Shown: positions 3,407 through 33,413 of the stretch, piece after piece
Numbering within the stretch: the stretch's first letter is position 1
Layout: each line of letters begins with the position of its first letter
DNA from: a virus
Reading direction: 5' to 3' (one strand)
DNA: 36,871 nucleotides
IMG/VR virus record: IMGVR_UViG_3300044811_000118
Span: 1 to 36,871 of that record
Position numbers and translations under genes: made by a program
The notes under the pieces: model-generated
Seen by the model: only the letters and a program-made list of their open reading frames with translations
What the model was told of the DNA's origin: nothing
Databases searched by the model: none

Positions 3407-4879
3407 CTAGAAGGCGTACAAGGAGGGCACGGCCGCTTCGACGGCAGCGCCCGACGAGTGAGCGGCTGCGGCAGTCCCGTTGACTGCGCGGGTGATCGTC
3501 GCAACCTGAGGTGCTGCCGTCGTACACGCCGTGACTGTGACTTGTTCCGTGTCGATAATCAGCGTGTACGGGAATGTGACCGTCTCGAGGAGAGTCGTAG
3601 CTACCGATGTAGTGACAGACATCGTGGTGGCCACGTTCGTGAGGCTGGCAGAGAGGGTCAACGCACCATCGGCCATGAAATAGTTGGTGTCGAAAATGGC
3701 GGTGGCCGGAAGAACGGGGGCCAGGAACATCTCGAACTTGTGGGTGGGACTGTTGCCGACCCGGTGCGTTTCCCTACCACCGATCAGCCACCCATCCCAG
3801 GTCGTGAACCCCAGAGTGGTGGAGGGCAGTCCGGCGACCTGGATACGATCACCGGGAACCATCGCCAGCAGATCTGCGAGTCGATTTGTTGGGGTGGTGA
3901 GCGCATCAATGCTGATCGACACCACGCGAAGGTTCGTGTTCTTCCCGCGGATGGAACGGTCCTGCGCGTAGGCCAGCAGATCAACGGAGGCGGTGTTCAA
4001 CACTGACTCGGAAATGTTTGCGGACCCGGCACGGCTGGTCAGAGTCGGGTCGGTGTAGGTCGCGGACAGGGACGGGCCTGCCGCGGTGACCGTTGATGCA
4101 ACGTTGGTGATGTCCCGAATGAATGCGGGCACATCGGAGATTTCGGTGGACGAGTCGAATGTGTAGGAAACGGTGGCAGGTCGGGTCCGCGCCCGAACGT
4201 TCACGGTCTGCACCGGTGCCAGCAGCGTCCCGCTGGTTGCCGTGTAAATGTAGCCCTGTTCCGTGCGAACGATCTGGTTGAAAGCATCCAGCGCGGAGAT
4301 GCCATTCACCGGAAGCGACACCGCTGCGGACGACAGATCGGAGGGCAGCGCTGCCAGGGTGATCTCAGCAGCAGTAGCCTGGATGGCCGCGAACGCCGCA
4401 GCTTCCGTGGTAGCCAAAGCCAAATATTCCAACGGCTGATTCAGGGTGTGCGACAACCGCGACACCAACGCCCCGGTTGGCACGGCCACCGGAGGGATAA
4501 TCGTCTGCGCAAACGAGCCGGAGGCTGTTGCGGGGCCACCCGTCGACGTGCCGGTCGACCCGATCGACCCGGAAACACTAATCGTCTTCGTGCCGTCACC
4601 GTTGTGTGTGACGGTCTTCGACCCGGACGTAATAAGTTGCGACGTAGACGCGCCGGCCCGGAAGTCAAACGAGAACGTGCCCGAACTCGCTGTGCCGTCA
4701 ATGTTCGCGGCCCAAGTGATCGTGTTCGTCAGATCGAAAGAGTTGTACGCACCCTTGATGAGCGTGAGGGAGTACGAGTCAGTGGACTGGTTAGCCCCGG
4801 TGTTCTGCGATGTCTGGTTGACGGTGAGCCGCAGGACCGCCCCGCCACCCAGACCGGATGAGGTATCGAAATCAGTCAT
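3407..4879 (-). CDS. Minor tail protein: N-terminal DUF859-like module plus tail-tip domain
   Basis: A 490-aa tail protein. Residues 1-130 look like the DUF859-type beta module of siphovirus tail proteins (SLTLIKG, SGSKTVTHNGDGTK). Residues about 140-410 resemble the C-terminal half of the tail-tip protein whose N-terminal half is encoded just upstream (NGISALDAFNQIVRTEQGYIY, then a domain ending GRETHRVGNSPTHKFEM). Residues 411-490 are a compact beta module ending in TRAVNGTAAAAHSSGAAV. The ATG follows the upstream stop TAG after one codon in the same frame, with no recognisable ribosome site, so coupling or stop readthrough is possible (see findings). Confidence 0.7.
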   Translation of the reverse strand: MTDFDTSSGLGGGAVLRLTVNQTSQNTGANQSTDSYSLTLIKGAYNSFDLTNTITWAANIDGTASSGTFSFDFRAGASTSQLITSGSKTVTHNGDGTKTISVSGSIGSTGTSTGGPATASGSFAQTIIPPVAVPTGALVSRLSHTLNQPLEYLALATTEAAAFAAIQATAAEITLAALPSDLSSAAVSLPVNGISALDAFNQIVRTEQGYIYTATSGTLLAPVQTVNVRARTRPATVSYTFDSSTEISDVPAFIRDITNVASTVTAAGPSLSATYTDPTLTSRAGSANISESVLNTASVDLLAYAQDRSIRGKNTNLRVVSISIDALTTPTNRLADLLAMVPGDRIQVAGLPSTTLGFTTWDGWLIGGRETHRVGNSPTHKFEMFLAPVLPATAIFDTNYFMADGALTLSASLTNVATTMSVTTSVATTLLETVTFPYTLIIDTEQVTVTACTTAAPQVATITRAVNGTAAAAHSSGAAVEAAVPSLYAF

Positions 4880-4882
4880 GGC

Positions 4883-5860
4883 CTAAACCGACGCAACCAG
4901 CGACATTGAGACGGGGGCACGGTAGGTGAGTGTCGCCGGGGTTGACCCGTAAACGATGGAGCCACGGGATGTCCCATCGACGTACAAGGTTGCGGTGATG
5001 GTCCACACGCCGGCCGCGAAGGTGCTGCCCAATCCCATCGAAACAAAGTGGGGGCCCGTGTCAACGGAGGCGTAAGTGGCAGGGGTACCGGAGTCACCGT
5101 CACGCACGAAGTAAGCCCCACCGGTGTACCCGAATTGGAAGGTGCGCGCTAAGCCAGAGATCCCCACGGAAGCGGTGATCTTCGCACCCGAGACGGGGGT
5201 GATCCAGAAGCTGTAAAACCCCAACGAGCTCGTCGGGTAAGTGAACGCGAAGGTGGGCCAAATCGTCCCGCTCGGGGACGCCAGCGAATCTTTCAACGTC
5301 AACTGGGTAGCCGCAGACAGCCCCGGGATAGCGGCCCCGCCGAACGCGGACCCGGAACTTCCTGTGAGGGTCAACAGCCCACTACCGGCGTTCGCGGTTT
5401 CCCGAGGGGTGGTGGTGCCCGCCACATCGTCAAGGGGAAAGAGAATGTACGGGGTGGCACCAGCGTTGATCGAGTCCACGAGCGTGCCGAGGGCACGGCG
5501 GGAAGCATTGCCGAGCATGTCATCACAGGTGAGGGTGATCTGCCCCCAAGTCTGCTCATCAGCAGGCAAAGCGATCGCCAACACCGTGCCCGATGTGAAC
5601 CGTCCGCCCACGTTCAGATTGACAGCCATCCCCTCAGTGACAGTCGTCGCATAGGGTGACACGGTGTTGTTCGGGGTAAACCGCCCATCCCGGTTGTTCA
5701 GGGTGATCGTGAAAGTCCCGGGTTCGGTGTCGCGGAACTGATCCTGTTTGCCGTACGACCGGCCGATTCCCTCACCGGCCTCCACATAGGTGGACACGTC
5801 GGTGAGCGCCCCTGACGCCCCGACCCCGAGTGCGAACTGGATCGGCGTGACGGCAGGCAT
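4883..5860 (-). CDS. Minor tail/tail-tip protein, N-terminal part with LamG-like domain
   Basis: A 325-aa protein. Residues 1-110 carry the start of the actinophage tail-tip protein (GEGIGRSYGKQDQF, EPGTFTITLNNRDGRFTP). Residues about 150-325 form a concanavalin/LamG-like beta sandwich (FYSFWITPV, WTITATLYVDGTSRGS), a likely carbohydrate-binding fold that stops abruptly at LVASV. It begins directly after the tape measure stop (TAA then ATG) and ends at a TAG one codon before the next in-frame ATG. Homologues, as I remember them, continue into the segment found in the next ORF, so this may be half of a split gene. Confidence 0.7.
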   Translation of the reverse strand: MPAVTPIQFALGVGASGALTDVSTYVEAGEGIGRSYGKQDQFRDTEPGTFTITLNNRDGRFTPNNTVSPYATTVTEGMAVNLNVGGRFTSGTVLAIALPADEQTWGQITLTCDDMLGNASRRALGTLVDSINAGATPYILFPLDDVAGTTTPRETANAGSGLLTLTGSSGSAFGGAAIPGLSAATQLTLKDSLASPSGTIWPTFAFTYPTSSLGFYSFWITPVSGAKITASVGISGLARTFQFGYTGGAYFVRDGDSGTPATYASVDTGPHFVSMGLGSTFAAGVWTITATLYVDGTSRGSIVYGSTPATLTYRAPVSMSLVASV

Positions 5861-7909
5861 TTAGACGCTGAGTCCGGCGAACTCGACACCGGAGATGGCA
5901 CCCGTTCGCCTGGCATTGACGAGTAGAGCCATGAGCTTGCGGGCCAACTCCGTCTCCGAGCCAACGAAGCCTCCCGGCACACTGATGGAGATTTGCGTGG
6001 CACCCCCCCCGCCGCCCAGGCCGATATGCCCGGCGTTCAACGGGATTATCGCCTCCGGGCCGGACTCGCCAACAAGGTTGATCTGAGGTTTGGTGACGAT
6101 TCCGCCCGCAGCTCGTGCTTCGTACGGTGCACCACCGTAGGAACCGCTCTGGCCAAACGTCGTATGGACCTCGGACGGGATGCTGTTGAGGGTATCGCGG
6201 TAACTTCCAGCCCGTCTCTCAGCAACATCCAGCTTGGCGGCCGCATTATCAAGCGACCCGTTCAACAGATCCTGGTTGGTCTTGGCGTCTTTAAGCGCAC
6301 CAGTCTGAGAACCAACGGCGCTACTCACCGCAGCGATCTTCTCGAGAACCTTCGCGTTGGCAGCAGCCTGGTTCGCTTTCGCAGAGGTGTCGTAGTCGCT
6401 CGCTGCCGTTACGTCGAGCAGCTTCGTGCGCTGATCGGTCAGCTTCCCGTTCAGCTCATCGGTTGCGCCCGTGACGCCCAATACTGAGTCGATCAGAAGT
6501 CCCCCGGAGATGCCCAGCTCCGACGCAGCCTGCAACGCCCCTGAGTCGAGCAATTGCTTCGCGGCGACAGCACGCAGGTTGTCTTTGATCGCGGCTGTTT
6601 CACCCTGTAGTGCCCCCGTGTAGTCAGCCACGGCTGCTGCGTTGTCCTGGGTGCTGCTGAGGAGCAGACCACCCGTGATCACGCCAGCCAACACACCAAG
6701 TGCACCCGCGACAAGACCGATCGGATTGGCATCCATCGCCACGTTTAGACCTGTTTGGGCAACCGTTTCAACGTCAGTTGCTACCGCTGCCTCTTTCGTG
6801 GCAGTCGTGGCAAGAAGAGTCGCGATCGTCGCGTTCGTCTGGCGAGTCTTATAGATGTCCACCGCCACCCCAGCGATTGACAGCAGCGGGCCGATCCCGG
6901 TGAGCGCCGTGCCGAGTGGACCCGCGATCCCCTTCGCCCAGTCAACAATTTTCGTTTTCACGATGTCTACCTGGGAGCCGAAGTTGTCCACTGAGGCCTT
7001 CGCCTGACCGTTGAGCTTCGCTGCGAGCTGGTCGAGTGCCTTCTGCGCGACCTCTGTCTGGGTGCTCCCCGAGGTTTGTGCCGTCGTCAGCGTGTCTTGA
7101 GCCGTGGACAACCCATCCTGCGCTTTGGCAACCTTGTCGGTGGCGTTCTGCAAAGCGATGGTGTCCGAGATGGAAAGCTGCTTCTTGCCTGCGTCGATCT
7201 CCTGCAATTGCTGCAACCGCAACTGCGCGGCAGCGAGGGTGTCTTGCGCTTTGGTGAGACCGACCTGAGCTGACGCGACCTTCTGTGTTTGGTCGACAGC
7301 CTTCTCCATGTGCACGCCGTACTGTGCAAGCACCTTCGCGCCGCTGCCACCGAGGATCTTCGCGACCAGGCCTGCGGCCTCCTCCAAGCTGACGTGTTTG
7401 GCCGCCGCAAGGTCTGTGACCACGCCCATCTGGGATAAGGCAGCCTCGGTTGAACCGGTCGCCTCGGTCAGTTTTGTCAGAGCCTTTTTGGTGTCCTCGG
7501 ATTCGTGGTCGAAGTTCTGGCCCGCCTGGACGGCCTTCTCGATCTCGTCCTTGTAGTCGGAAACCACCCCACCTGATGCCTTGATTGCCGCGTCCAGCTG
7601 GTCGGAGGCTTGCTTCTCCCCGGACCCGAAAGTAAGCAGAGCGATACCAGCGCCGGTGATCACGCCACCAGCTACTTCCATCGACTTCGCCAGGTTCGCC
7701 CCGTGCTTGCCGAACTCCTCAACACCATCACCTGTGCGGTTCAGGATCTCCCCGAACTCGCCACCGATGATGCCACCCAGCTTTGAGAACCCGGCCCCAA
7801 TCGAACCGGTGACTCTTTGTGCTGTGGACTCCGCCGCTTCCATCGACTTCGACGCGGAACGGTCCTCGCCCAAGAGAATGAATGACAGGTTTTGGAGGAG
7901 TGGCATCAT
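5861..7909 (-). CDS. Tape measure protein
   Basis: A 682-aa tail-length determinant. Features: Ala/Gly-rich N-terminus, hydrophobic segment about residues 78-96, a long coiled coil about 212-310 with repeated KAQDTL/TAQDTL units, hydrophobic Gly-rich helices about 330-355 and 393-420, and a C-terminus with PQINLVGESGPEAIIPL typical of actinophage tape measures. It is the longest tail gene and follows the frameshifting assembly chaperone, as expected. Its ATG overlaps the chaperone stop (ATGA); an AAGGGGG ribosome site lies just before. At 682 aa it is short for the family, implying a short tail. Confidence 0.9.
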   Translation of the reverse strand: MMPLLQNLSFILLGEDRSASKSMEAAESTAQRVTGSIGAGFSKLGGIIGGEFGEILNRTGDGVEEFGKHGANLAKSMEVAGGVITGAGIALLTFGSGEKQASDQLDAAIKASGGVVSDYKDEIEKAVQAGQNFDHESEDTKKALTKLTEATGSTEAALSQMGVVTDLAAAKHVSLEEAAGLVAKILGGSGAKVLAQYGVHMEKAVDQTQKVASAQVGLTKAQDTLAAAQLRLQQLQEIDAGKKQLSISDTIALQNATDKVAKAQDGLSTAQDTLTTAQTSGSTQTEVAQKALDQLAAKLNGQAKASVDNFGSQVDIVKTKIVDWAKGIAGPLGTALTGIGPLLSIAGVAVDIYKTRQTNATIATLLATTATKEAAVATDVETVAQTGLNVAMDANPIGLVAGALGVLAGVITGGLLLSSTQDNAAAVADYTGALQGETAAIKDNLRAVAAKQLLDSGALQAASELGISGGLLIDSVLGVTGATDELNGKLTDQRTKLLDVTAASDYDTSAKANQAAANAKVLEKIAAVSSAVGSQTGALKDAKTNQDLLNGSLDNAAAKLDVAERRAGSYRDTLNSIPSEVHTTFGQSGSYGGAPYEARAAGGIVTKPQINLVGESGPEAIIPLNAGHIGLGGGGGATQISISVPGGFVGSETELARKLMALLVNARRTGAISGVEFAGLSV

Positions 7910-12063: not shown

Positions 12064-13497
12064 CTACTGGGTGACGAGCGTGCGGAACGCGCCAGGAACA
12101 ACAGCGTCAGCACCAACACGCCAGTACGCGAACCAGCCAGCCTGACCGGTCGGCCGTGCGGTCGAGGAGTCCTTGACCATCGGCTCGTACATGACCGTCA
12201 TGCCGACCCGGTCGACAATCGCGTACTGCGAGAAGTCACCAGCGACGGCGATCTTCGAACCGGTCGTCAGGGCGCTGGCCATCGTGGTCGACTCGTACAG
12301 CGGCAGACCAAGTACACGTTCCGGCTGGCCCGCACCGAGGTTCGTCCAGTACGACGAACCACCTGCGGTGTCGAACTGGCGGGTCTTGTTGATGATCGCC
12401 ACGTTGGCGATGATTGCAAGAGACGCGGCGTTCAGACGGAACCTCGGCGGGATCGCGGCCTGGAGCGAGTAGATGTCCGCGATTGCGTACGTGGCCACCG
12501 CAGCAGTCGTGACGGTCGTGGTCGCAGCGGTGATGATGCCCTTGGGCACACCACCGGAGCCTGCGCCTGTCGTGAACGCAGCCTCCTCGAGCCGGTCCTT
12601 CGCGTCCGTGAGAAGCACAGGGAACTGGCTCGCGAAGTCCGAGTCGCCCAGGACTTCATACGAACCGAACACCCACGCCGCCGCCTTCTGCGGTGTGATG
12701 ACAGGCTGCGCCACGGTCGGAGTGTTGTCGGTGACAACGCCAGCCTCAGCAAGCCATGCAGCGTTCACACCCGCCGACGTGACACCTTCCCAGAAGTTCG
12801 TCGTGATCGTCTTGATCTGCGAAATCTTCCGGTAGGGGTTCGCGGAACCAGCGTTCGTGAGCACGATCGTCGGGTCCAGCGTCACCGGGATCAGGAACCC
12901 ACCGTTCGCGCCTGTCAGGGACAGGGCAGCACGGACGGATGCCTGCTCCTCAGGTTCGAGGGCGTTGATCTCGCCCTTGTTCTTGATGACCTTCTTGAAC
13001 GCCCGGTGATAGTCGTCCGAGCCCGCGAGCAGAACGTGACGGGAAATCCCGCCATCCTCGCCCTGGTTCTCGTCATTCTCGATCAGACGCGTGACCTTCT
13101 CCGCGGCCTCATCCGACATCCGGTAGCGGGCACCCGATTTGGTTGCCGCCTCGACAGCATCGAACGCACGGCCGCGCATGTCATCGAACTCGATAGCCCG
13201 AGCCATGACGGCGCGAGTGGAGTCGAACGGGTCACGCTGCGTGCGCGTGAACACGGTCGGGCCGACAGCGGCACCTTCGTGCACGTTGGTGGGTTCGAGA
13301 GCTGCGGAGCGAATCGAATCGATCTTCTCCGCACGAGCCGCGAGCGGAACACGCTCGGTCTCGAGAGTGTCAAACTCCGTCTCGAGCTCAACGAACCGTG
13401 CTGATTCCTCAGCAGTGGCTTCATCGATCTCGGACAGGGCGAGCAGTTCGGTGCGAATTGCGCTCATGCGCTCCAGCACCTCATTGAGTTTTGCCAT
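12064..13497 (-). CDS. HK97-family major capsid protein
   Basis: A 477-aa capsid subunit. Residues 1-100 are a charged coiled coil (the delta/scaffold domain, normally removed by the protease) and residues about 190-477 carry the HK97 fold: GGFLIPVTLDPTIV, NPYRKISQIKTI, FGSYEVLGDSD, RLEEAAFTTGAGSG and a C-terminus with YWRVGADAVVPGAF. Strong AGGAGG ribosome site, and the ATG overlaps the protease stop (TAATG). Assembles into the icosahedral shell with the portal encoded upstream. Confidence 0.95.
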   Translation of the reverse strand: MAKLNEVLERMSAIRTELLALSEIDEATAEESARFVELETEFDTLETERVPLAARAEKIDSIRSAALEPTNVHEGAAVGPTVFTRTQRDPFDSTRAVMARAIEFDDMRGRAFDAVEAATKSGARYRMSDEAAEKVTRLIENDENQGEDGGISRHVLLAGSDDYHRAFKKVIKNKGEINALEPEEQASVRAALSLTGANGGFLIPVTLDPTIVLTNAGSANPYRKISQIKTITTNFWEGVTSAGVNAAWLAEAGVVTDNTPTVAQPVITPQKAAAWVFGSYEVLGDSDFASQFPVLLTDAKDRLEEAAFTTGAGSGGVPKGIITAATTTVTTAAVATYAIADIYSLQAAIPPRFRLNAASLAIIANVAIINKTRQFDTAGGSSYWTNLGAGQPERVLGLPLYESTTMASALTTGSKIAVAGDFSQYAIVDRVGMTVMYEPMVKDSSTARPTGQAGWFAYWRVGADAVVPGAFRTLVTQ

Positions 13498-30377: not shown

Positions 30378-31138
30378 CAGACGGTGGCGAGCATCTTCTC
30401 GATCGCGCACGCGACCGCCTGAGCTTGCGGCTCCGGCGAAACCGTTCCCGTGAGCTGCTTGAACAGGTTGATAATCTCCCACGCAAGGTCGATCTTGAAC
30501 TTGGTCGCGGAGGCCGCGTAGGTCGCGTAGGCCGCGGAGGTCGCGTAGGCCGCGGAGGCCGCGTAGGTCGCGTAGGTCGCGGAGGCCGCGTAGGCCGCGG
30601 AGGCCGCGTAGGTCGCGTAGGTCGCGGAGGCCGCGGAGGTCGCGTAGGTCGCGTAGGTCGCGTAGGCCGCGTAGGCCGCGTAGGTCGCGTAGGTCGCGTA
30701 GGCCGCGTAGGCCGCGGAGGCCGCGTAGGCATTCGCCTCGCTTGGATCTTCGATCCAACGCTCCGCGAGTTCGATGTAACCCAACGCCTTGCCTGTTTTG
30801 TCCAGGTGCAGGACTTTCCGGGCTGCGTACACGGCACACTTCACGTAGACGATGCGCAGTTCCAGAGCAGTCAGCTTGTGGTCAGTGGTGCCGACTGTTG
30901 CGTGTCCGAGGTCGAGGGCGATGATGGAGTTTTCGGGGGAGAGGATGCCGTCAGGGCCAGCGAGGCCGTCGTTGACACCCTGCACAATTTTGGCGAGCAT
31001 CTCGTCGGAGCAGGCGGGGTAGTCGGTGATCTTCTTGTCGCCGTTCTCCCACGAGATCACGTTCATTGCGCAGCCTTTCCCTGATCCGGCTTTGTGGGAG
31101 CCGGCCGCGAGGGTGAGGGGTTCGAAGATGTTGTTCAT
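30377..31138 (-). CDS. Repeat protein with 25 tandem [AT][YS]A tripeptides
   Basis: A 253-aa protein from ATG 31138 (AAAGG upstream). Residues 1-125 are folded (MNNIFEPLTLAAGSHKAGSG; VISWENGDKKITDYPACSDE; ALDLGHATVGTTDHKL). Residues about 137-211 are 25 tripeptides AYA, TYA, ASA or TSA, then a C-terminal helix (LAWEIINLFKQLTGTVSPEP). Ala-rich Tyr/Ser repeats like these form helical or helical-stack structures in other phage and actinobacterial proteins (some are in Imm5-like immunity families). Binding role inferred; function unknown. The repeat is likely length-variable between strains. Confidence 0.75.
   Translation of the reverse strand: MNNIFEPLTLAAGSHKAGSGKGCAMNVISWENGDKKITDYPACSDEMLAKIVQGVNDGLAGPDGILSPENSIIALDLGHATVGTTDHKLTALELRIVYVKCAVYAARKVLHLDKTGKALGYIELAERWIEDPSEANAYAASAAYAAYATYATYAAYAAYATYATYATSAASATYATYAASAAYAASATYATYAASAAYATSAAYATYAASATKFKIDLAWEIINLFKQLTGTVSPEPQAQAVACAIEKMLATV
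30506..30730. repeat. 9-bp tandem repeat array, 25 units
   Basis: 225 bp made of 9-bp units GCG(T/G)AGG(T/C)C with only two or three variable positions: Tyr (TAC) versus Ser (TCC) and Ala versus Thr. Variation is confined to those bases and never breaks the frame, so expansion and contraction occur in units of three codons. Confidence 0.95.
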
Positions 31139-32314: not shown

Positions 32315-32685
32315 AGCGCTTCCCTGTACTCTCGCTCGGTCCCGCGCGGTGCCCCATCGTTGACGATGAGCAGCAGCCCGTCACGGTGCAGGTCACCCAT
32401 TCTTTTCCTGGGGCTGTCCCATGCGATCTGCGGCCAACCATTCCGCTCCCACCTGAGGCGGTACAACTCGTTCGCCTCCGAACCGGTCAACATTCCCTCC
32501 TGACGCACCAAAGCCAGAACAGCCGCCCGCGACTCGTGGATCGTGGCCTGCGACTTATCGCCGGCCATGTGACTTGTCGCCGGGTCGGTGCGGCGTGTGC
32601 GGGGCTCGTCACCATCCGCGAACAGCGACAGCATCGACGGGAAGTCCTGACGGGCGACCGCAGCGACCCGCTCCACGACGTTCAT
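32311..32685 (-). CDS. Winged-helix-like protein, actinophage type
   Basis: A 124-aa protein. TRRTDPATSHMAGDKSQATI followed by RAAVLALVRQEGMLTGSEAN, ELYRLRWER, and SPRKRMGDLHRDGLLLIVND is the pattern of a small winged-helix (MarR-like) domain found widely in phage early regions. The RTDP.TSH motif is a common lead-in. Likely a DNA-binding regulator. ATG overlaps the upstream stop. Confidence 0.65.
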   Translation of the reverse strand: MNVVERVAAVARQDFPSMLSLFADGDEPRTRRTDPATSHMAGDKSQATIHESRAAVLALVRQEGMLTGSEANELYRLRWERNGWPQIAWDSPRKRMGDLHRDGLLLIVNDGAPRGTEREYREAL

Positions 32686-33413
32686 GACTGCACATCCTTG
32701 AGGTCAACATCGTCGGCGTGCAGCTTGCCGATGACTTTGCGCCACGGGCCAGTGAGCTTGTCGTAGTGCTCCTGCGTGAAACCGTGTTGCCCGATCAGGT
32801 CGCGTGCGTTGAGCGCGACCGACGCAGCCCACGACGCATCCCACGACGCAGCCCCCGACGCAGCCCACGACGCATCCCACGACGCAGCCCGCGACGCAGC
32901 CCACGACGCAGCCCGCGACGCAGCCCACGACGCATCCCGCGACGCATCCCGCGACGCAGCCCGCGACGCAGCCCGCGACGCAGCCCACGACGCAGCCCAC
33001 GACGCAGCCCACGACGCAGCCAGTTCCTTCGCCTCCGGTGCGGTTATGGCGACGGAACGGCGCACAGACGCGACGATCTCAGCCCACTGTGGGCCGAACG
33101 TTTCTTCGAGGTCTTTGTCGGTGATGTCGGTGGTGGTGAGATACTTCGTCACTTCCGACGCCATGCGGCCGTCGTCGTCGTTCCAGTTTTCGGCGCGGCC
33201 CCGTTTGCGGAGGACTTCGCGGATGAGGTACACATCCCCGTCGACGGGGGCGCAATACCGGATGGCCCCAGTGAGGCACACCTGCCCTTGACCGTTCTTC
33301 TCAGCCCCTTGTGTCCAGCCGTGAATGTTGATGTAGTCTGCGGCGGCACGCAGGCGGGTGATCATCGGTTTGGTGAACGCTGATCCGGTAGTCTTACTGT
33401 CAGTGGTTGGCAC
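32682..33413 (-). CDS. Repeat protein with 17 tandem [WR][AD]AS tetrapeptides
   Basis: A 243-aa protein with GTG start at 33413 (AAAGG upstream). Residues 1-130 are a folded domain (ITRLRAAADYINIHGWTQGA, GQVCLTGAIRYCAPVDG, RMASEVTKYLTTTDITD) that resembles the small DUF6197-type domain (W.QGA...CLTGAI). Residues about 131-198 are 17 tetrapeptides WAAS/RAAS/RDAS/WDAS, then a C-terminal GQHGFTQEHYDKLTGPW helix. First gene after the excisionase-like gene. Shares its plan (folded head, Ala-rich short repeat, short tail) with the 30377-31138 protein. Function unknown. Confidence 0.75.
   Translation of the reverse strand: MPTTDSKTTGSAFTKPMITRLRAAADYINIHGWTQGAEKNGQGQVCLTGAIRYCAPVDGDVYLIREVLRKRGRAENWNDDDGRMASEVTKYLTTTDITDKDLEETFGPQWAEIVASVRRSVAITAPEAKELAASWAASWAASWAASRAASRAASRDASRDASWAASRAASWAASRAASWDASWAASGAASWDASWAASVALNARDLIGQHGFTQEHYDKLTGPWRKVIGKLHADDVDLKDVQS
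32821..33024. repeat. 12-bp tandem repeat array, 17 units
   Basis: 204 bp of 12-bp units GACGCAGCCCAC and near copies (plus strand), varying at the codons for Trp/Arg/Gly and Ala/Asp only. In-frame throughout. Long shadow ORFs on both strands arise from it. Confidence 0.95.

Follow-up and report, generated by a model that had tools for sequence, protein, structure and literature searches.

A split tail hub gene in an actinophage genome, probably encoding two translationally coupled chains

How can a core tail gene carry a stop codon inside one of its domains, with well-conserved coding sequence on both sides? This question is raised by the IMG/VR virus record IMGVR_UViG_3300044811_000118, a stretch of 36,871 nt analysed as a whole (hereafter the window). 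Two open reading frames of its minus strand, ORF1 (325 aa) and ORF2 (490 aa), lie in one common frame and together resemble a gene family that otherwise consists of one open reading frame, interrupted here by a TAG at 4885–4883. As the original prediction had it, they are separated only by TAG GCC before the next ATG (minus strand: ...GCG TCG GTT TAG GCC ATG ACT GAT TTC...), and 817 codons would result if the TAG were read through. The comparisons described below indicate that the locus probably encodes an actinophage tail baseplate hub by two translationally coupled genes, giving two chains instead of one. The features of the locus are collected in Table 1.

Table 1. Positions of the hub locus features in the window, and of a fused/split pair used for comparison.
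Feature	Position	Strand	Basis or remark
Upstream gene, probable tape measure protein	5861..7909	-	position, length, same neighbour in relatives
ORF1, 325 aa: hub N-terminal part and lectin domain minus its last strand; ends at TAG	4883..5860	-	
Hub first domain (ORF1 about 1-130)	5471..5860	-	44-60% identity, nine relatives; hub fold in relative's model
Lectin (LamG/ConA-like) domain, last strand excepted (ORF1 about 131-325)	4886..5470	-	lectin range 131-361, L009 model
TAG, GCC, ATG: proposed termination-reinitiation site, 3-nt gap	4877..4885	-	
ORF2, 490 aa: DUF859-like module, last lectin strand, hub C-terminal part	3407..4879	-	
DUF859-like module (ORF2 about 1-131), the insert	4487..4879	-	missing from all relatives
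Last lectin strand GALVSRLSHT (ORF2 136-145)	4445..4474	-	strand 342-350 of L009 model
Hub C-terminal part (ORF2 about 157-490)	3410..4411	-	42-59% identity, nine relatives; hub fold
Barebow gp12 / McShie gp13+gp14 loci	L113 2444-4717; L098 2188-5279		fused/split pair, cultured phages

A profile search of viral contigs retrieved nine full-length homologues (L006–L011 and L013–L015; L007 and L010 are near-identical and both counted). All nine consist of a single uninterrupted frame devoid of a DUF859 module. Two more distant relatives are single-chain too, namely L096 from a Schumannella MAG, the one relative provided by two genome scans, and L045, which came from the 74 loci of major-capsid relatives; besides this distant hub, these 74 loci added cut fragments. 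At the DNA level, no neighbour of the window was found among the phages and plasmids searched. Both ORFs of the window align to the nine single-chain proteins, with identities of 44–60% in the N-terminal part, 25–31% in the lectin part and 42–59% in the C-terminal part, the latter corresponding to ORF2 residues 137–490. As nine relatives have single genes to which both ORFs jointly align, the split arrangement is not a matter of chance. The usual C-terminal part is thus indeed found in ORF2 behind the DUF859-like module, as originally predicted. These phrog_5313-like hubs of uncultivated actinophages share with the window the order of N-terminal part, lectin and C-terminal part, as well as the position behind the tape measure gene. 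In contrast to the window, they are open throughout, with neither stop nor DUF859 module. No two-gene relative was seen within the hub family, whose members are all single-chain.

Two observations on these relatives may be mentioned here. The L096 hub gene (4984-7515, 844 aa) has additional sequence close to the C-terminal end, weakly matching a carbohydrate-binding family (PF02018, below cut-off), which can be taken as another sign of module uptake by a hub gene. The major capsid protein of the window (12064-13497) is 77–88% identical in several short IMG/VR contigs (L022–L029), the tail genes lying outside those contigs; longer capsid relatives have different tail tips, and the tail is therefore mosaic.

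The structural model of the fused 817-aa product was poor, the module being unplaceable, and the fold was read from the model of the single-chain relative L009 (pLDDT 78.5, pTM 0.73). Comparison of this model with known hubs (VIA) gave Z scores of 21.0 for phi812 (9eug_E), 19.6 for Mu gp44 (1wru) and 17.6 for T4 gp27 (1k28_D), the hub matches covering residues 1 to about 600; Foldseek added a match to T5 (pb3). Residues 131-361 form a lectin jelly roll (Z about 16). Judged from its model, L009 is a baseplate hub of the gp27/gp44 type into which a lectin (LamG-like) domain is inserted, and by these fold matches the gene of the window would therefore be a tail hub with a lectin insertion. The fold is the one common to the single-chain relative and the hubs of T4, Mu, phi812 and T5 (Z 17.6–21). 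The latter are made of one chain in the solved structures, whereas the window has two ORFs and the lectin insertion. ORF1 itself has no Pfam match for the lectin domain, and a search of PDB sequences returned nothing for the hub C-terminal part and just chance-level matches for the N-terminal part. In the distant relative L045, Pfam Laminin_G_3 (PF13385) is matched in full, and this match ends in a comparable strand and helix.

The L009 model also locates the point of insertion. The last two strands of its lectin range are residues 326-333 and 342-350. The segment APVSMSLVASV, immediately 5' of the TAG, aligns with the first of these strands, and GALVSRLSHT of ORF2 with the second. Between the two comes the DUF859-like module; once it is omitted, no large gap remains in the alignment of the flanks to the relatives. 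The insertion thus lies in a lectin loop, with little or no hub sequence lost, and the break consequently falls inside the lectin domain. The proposal that a module was inserted into a single-chain tail-tip gene gains support from these flanks and from relatives that lack the module. The description of ORF1 as the N-terminal part followed by a LamG-like domain also holds; the abrupt end ascribed to this domain does not, its last strand being present in ORF2 behind the module.

The N-terminal module of ORF2 matches PF05895 (DUF859) with a Pfam E of 1e-6 and 28.0 bits, just under the curated cut-off of 28.8 bits, hence the name DUF859-like. Its match to phrog_372 has an E of 5.6e-12, residues 7-126 aligning on profile positions 7-126. 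The closest module opens L018 gene B, with 46% identity in an alignment that starts at Met1; the Met1 of ORF2 likewise aligns with that of L019 and L020. The module opens its gene right after the start codon in all of 18 other loci (about 14 distinct; L098–L100 included), mostly retrieved through internal motifs of the module. Of the 16 tabulated DUF859 starts, 12 have an upstream stop at -8 to +4 nt and the other four at 10-20 nt; the +3 nt of the window fits this pattern. Because the module is gene-initial in all 18 loci, the ATG of ORF2 is most likely an inherited start, which bears out the suggestion that the module begins at its natural N-terminus. Most simply, the module would have come with a start codon of its own, and perhaps also with the preceding stop.

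Is this ATG likely to be used? It has no Shine-Dalgarno sequence, the best duplex reaching -2.5 kcal/mol, in agreement with the earlier remark that no ribosome site is visible. ORF1 lacks one as well (-3.2 kcal/mol), while most neighbouring genes of the cluster score -5 to -10 kcal/mol. Since the start of ORF1 is undoubted, the lack of such a site is no argument against the start of ORF2. A start at or across the upstream stop is also found for ORF1, where the TAA of the preceding gene abuts the ATG with no gap, and for the hub genes of the relatives. The stop-to-start distance between ORF1 and ORF2 is 3 nt, short as in translationally coupled pairs. With a 2-nt gap, reinitiation efficiency in three gene pairs from E. 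coli remained at 30-95% of that of the native overlap; with longer gaps most of it was gone (PMC10666635). Complex subunits are over-represented among such close gene pairs (PMC10666635).

These elements suggest the following scenario. A DUF859-like module, of a kind that elsewhere opens separate tail or fibre genes, would have recombined into the loop preceding the last strand of the lectin, bringing along its start codon and perhaps also the stop before it. Ribosomes would stop at the TAG of ORF1 and reinitiate three bases further on, at the ATG of ORF2, to yield a 325-aa and a 490-aa chain. Both would assemble into the hub, the second chain contributing the last lectin strand. The recombination event, the reinitiation, the two-chain assembly and the strand complementation are all inferred steps. 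The inserted module apparently brought its own start codon, so that the hub probably consists of two chains. Several points count against this. The split lies inside the lectin domain, and the chains must therefore complement each other, or the lectin would be left damaged. Two genes would not require a shared frame, which has one chance in three of occurring. Finally, there is one known copy, and no homologous two-gene hub was found by sequence.

A precedent exists in another tail-gene family and supports the two-chain reading. In McShie-type Microbacterium phages (Orlajensenviridae), the minor tail genes gp13 and gp14 form a coupled pair with a TAATG junction, and gp14 begins with a DUF859-like module. 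In the Curtobacterium phage Barebow, the single gene gp12 matches gp13 over residues 13-352 (E 9e-19) and gp14 over residues 395-717 (E 2e-49), from which it follows that one tail protein exists both fused and split. The fused/split contrast is the same as that of the window, although Barebow gp12 belongs to a different sequence family from the window hub. L018 genes A/B are likewise two coupled minor tail genes joined by TAATG. Both McShie gp13/gp14 and L018 genes A/B resemble the window in lying behind the tape measure gene and in having a second gene that opens with a DUF859-like module; McShie gp14 differs in containing FN3 domains. The match of the window hub to the McShie-type first chain is weak (P 0.003), whereas that of the DUF859-like module is clear. 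No profile link was found between the hub C-terminal part and McShie gp14 or L018 gene B, which thus serve as analogues rather than homologues.

Should both chains be produced, a core tail gene would have been caught stepping from one chain to two, and a module with its own start would have left the conserved hub sequence intact, with a natural split-lectin hub as the outcome. A further-reaching proposal, less likely than not, is that the two different chains are held by one shared lectin, whose last strand comes from the second chain, and that start-bearing modules recurrently split structural genes. More generally, a stop within a conserved gene is not necessarily a sign of readthrough or decay if it is followed by the native start of a mobile module.

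It could be argued that the gene is simply broken, or that the TAG is an artefact, so that no working two-chain hub exists: a nonsense mutation may have arisen recently, the recombinant may be an abortive one, or the metagenome contig may have been wrongly sequenced or assembled. The break is indeed within a domain, every relative is an intact single gene, and the locus is known from a single metagenomic copy: a search of viral contigs found no second copy of the junction. Such damage nevertheless seems unlikely, since apart from the TAG both parts are open and well conserved, and the head, packaging, tail and integrase genes examined besides the hub are open and family-like. Base composition is even over the insert (63, 61 and 62% G+C), and the module's native start coincides exactly with the codon that follows TAG GCC.

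Readthrough of the TAG, whether programmed or leaky, would yield some 817-aa hub with the DUF859 module in a lectin loop; this outcome had been offered next to two cooperating polypeptides. It would make sense of the frame being unchanged across the TAG, and the fused order would leave the lectin on one chain. It is very improbable all the same: no RNA structure was detected at the TAG (z 0.69), the window contains no tRNA gene, other ORFs of the window end in TAG, including the major capsid gene and ORF2, and the module supplies its own start. An Rfam search of the window gave no match. RNA structure, tRNA content and TAG usage thus bring no positive evidence for the readthrough half of the original prediction, and two cooperating polypeptides are favoured. 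A recoded TAG in this phage was rejected, given that TAG terminates the major capsid gene, ORF2 and others. That ORF1 alone is the tail protein and ORF2 a functionally unrelated downstream fibre protein can hardly be maintained: DUF859 modules are usually found at the beginning of fibre or minor tail proteins, but ORF2 beyond its module has the identity to the hub C-terminal part of nine relatives given above, and this part belongs to the hub fold in the model.

Elsewhere in the window, two tandem arrays were noted in minus-strand ORFs. The first, at 30506-30730, has 25 copies of a 9/45-bp unit and encodes an alanine/tyrosine-rich stretch. The second, at 32820-33021 within the ORF 32682-33413 (-), has 17 copies of a 12-bp unit and encodes an Ala-Ser-Trp/Arg-rich stretch.
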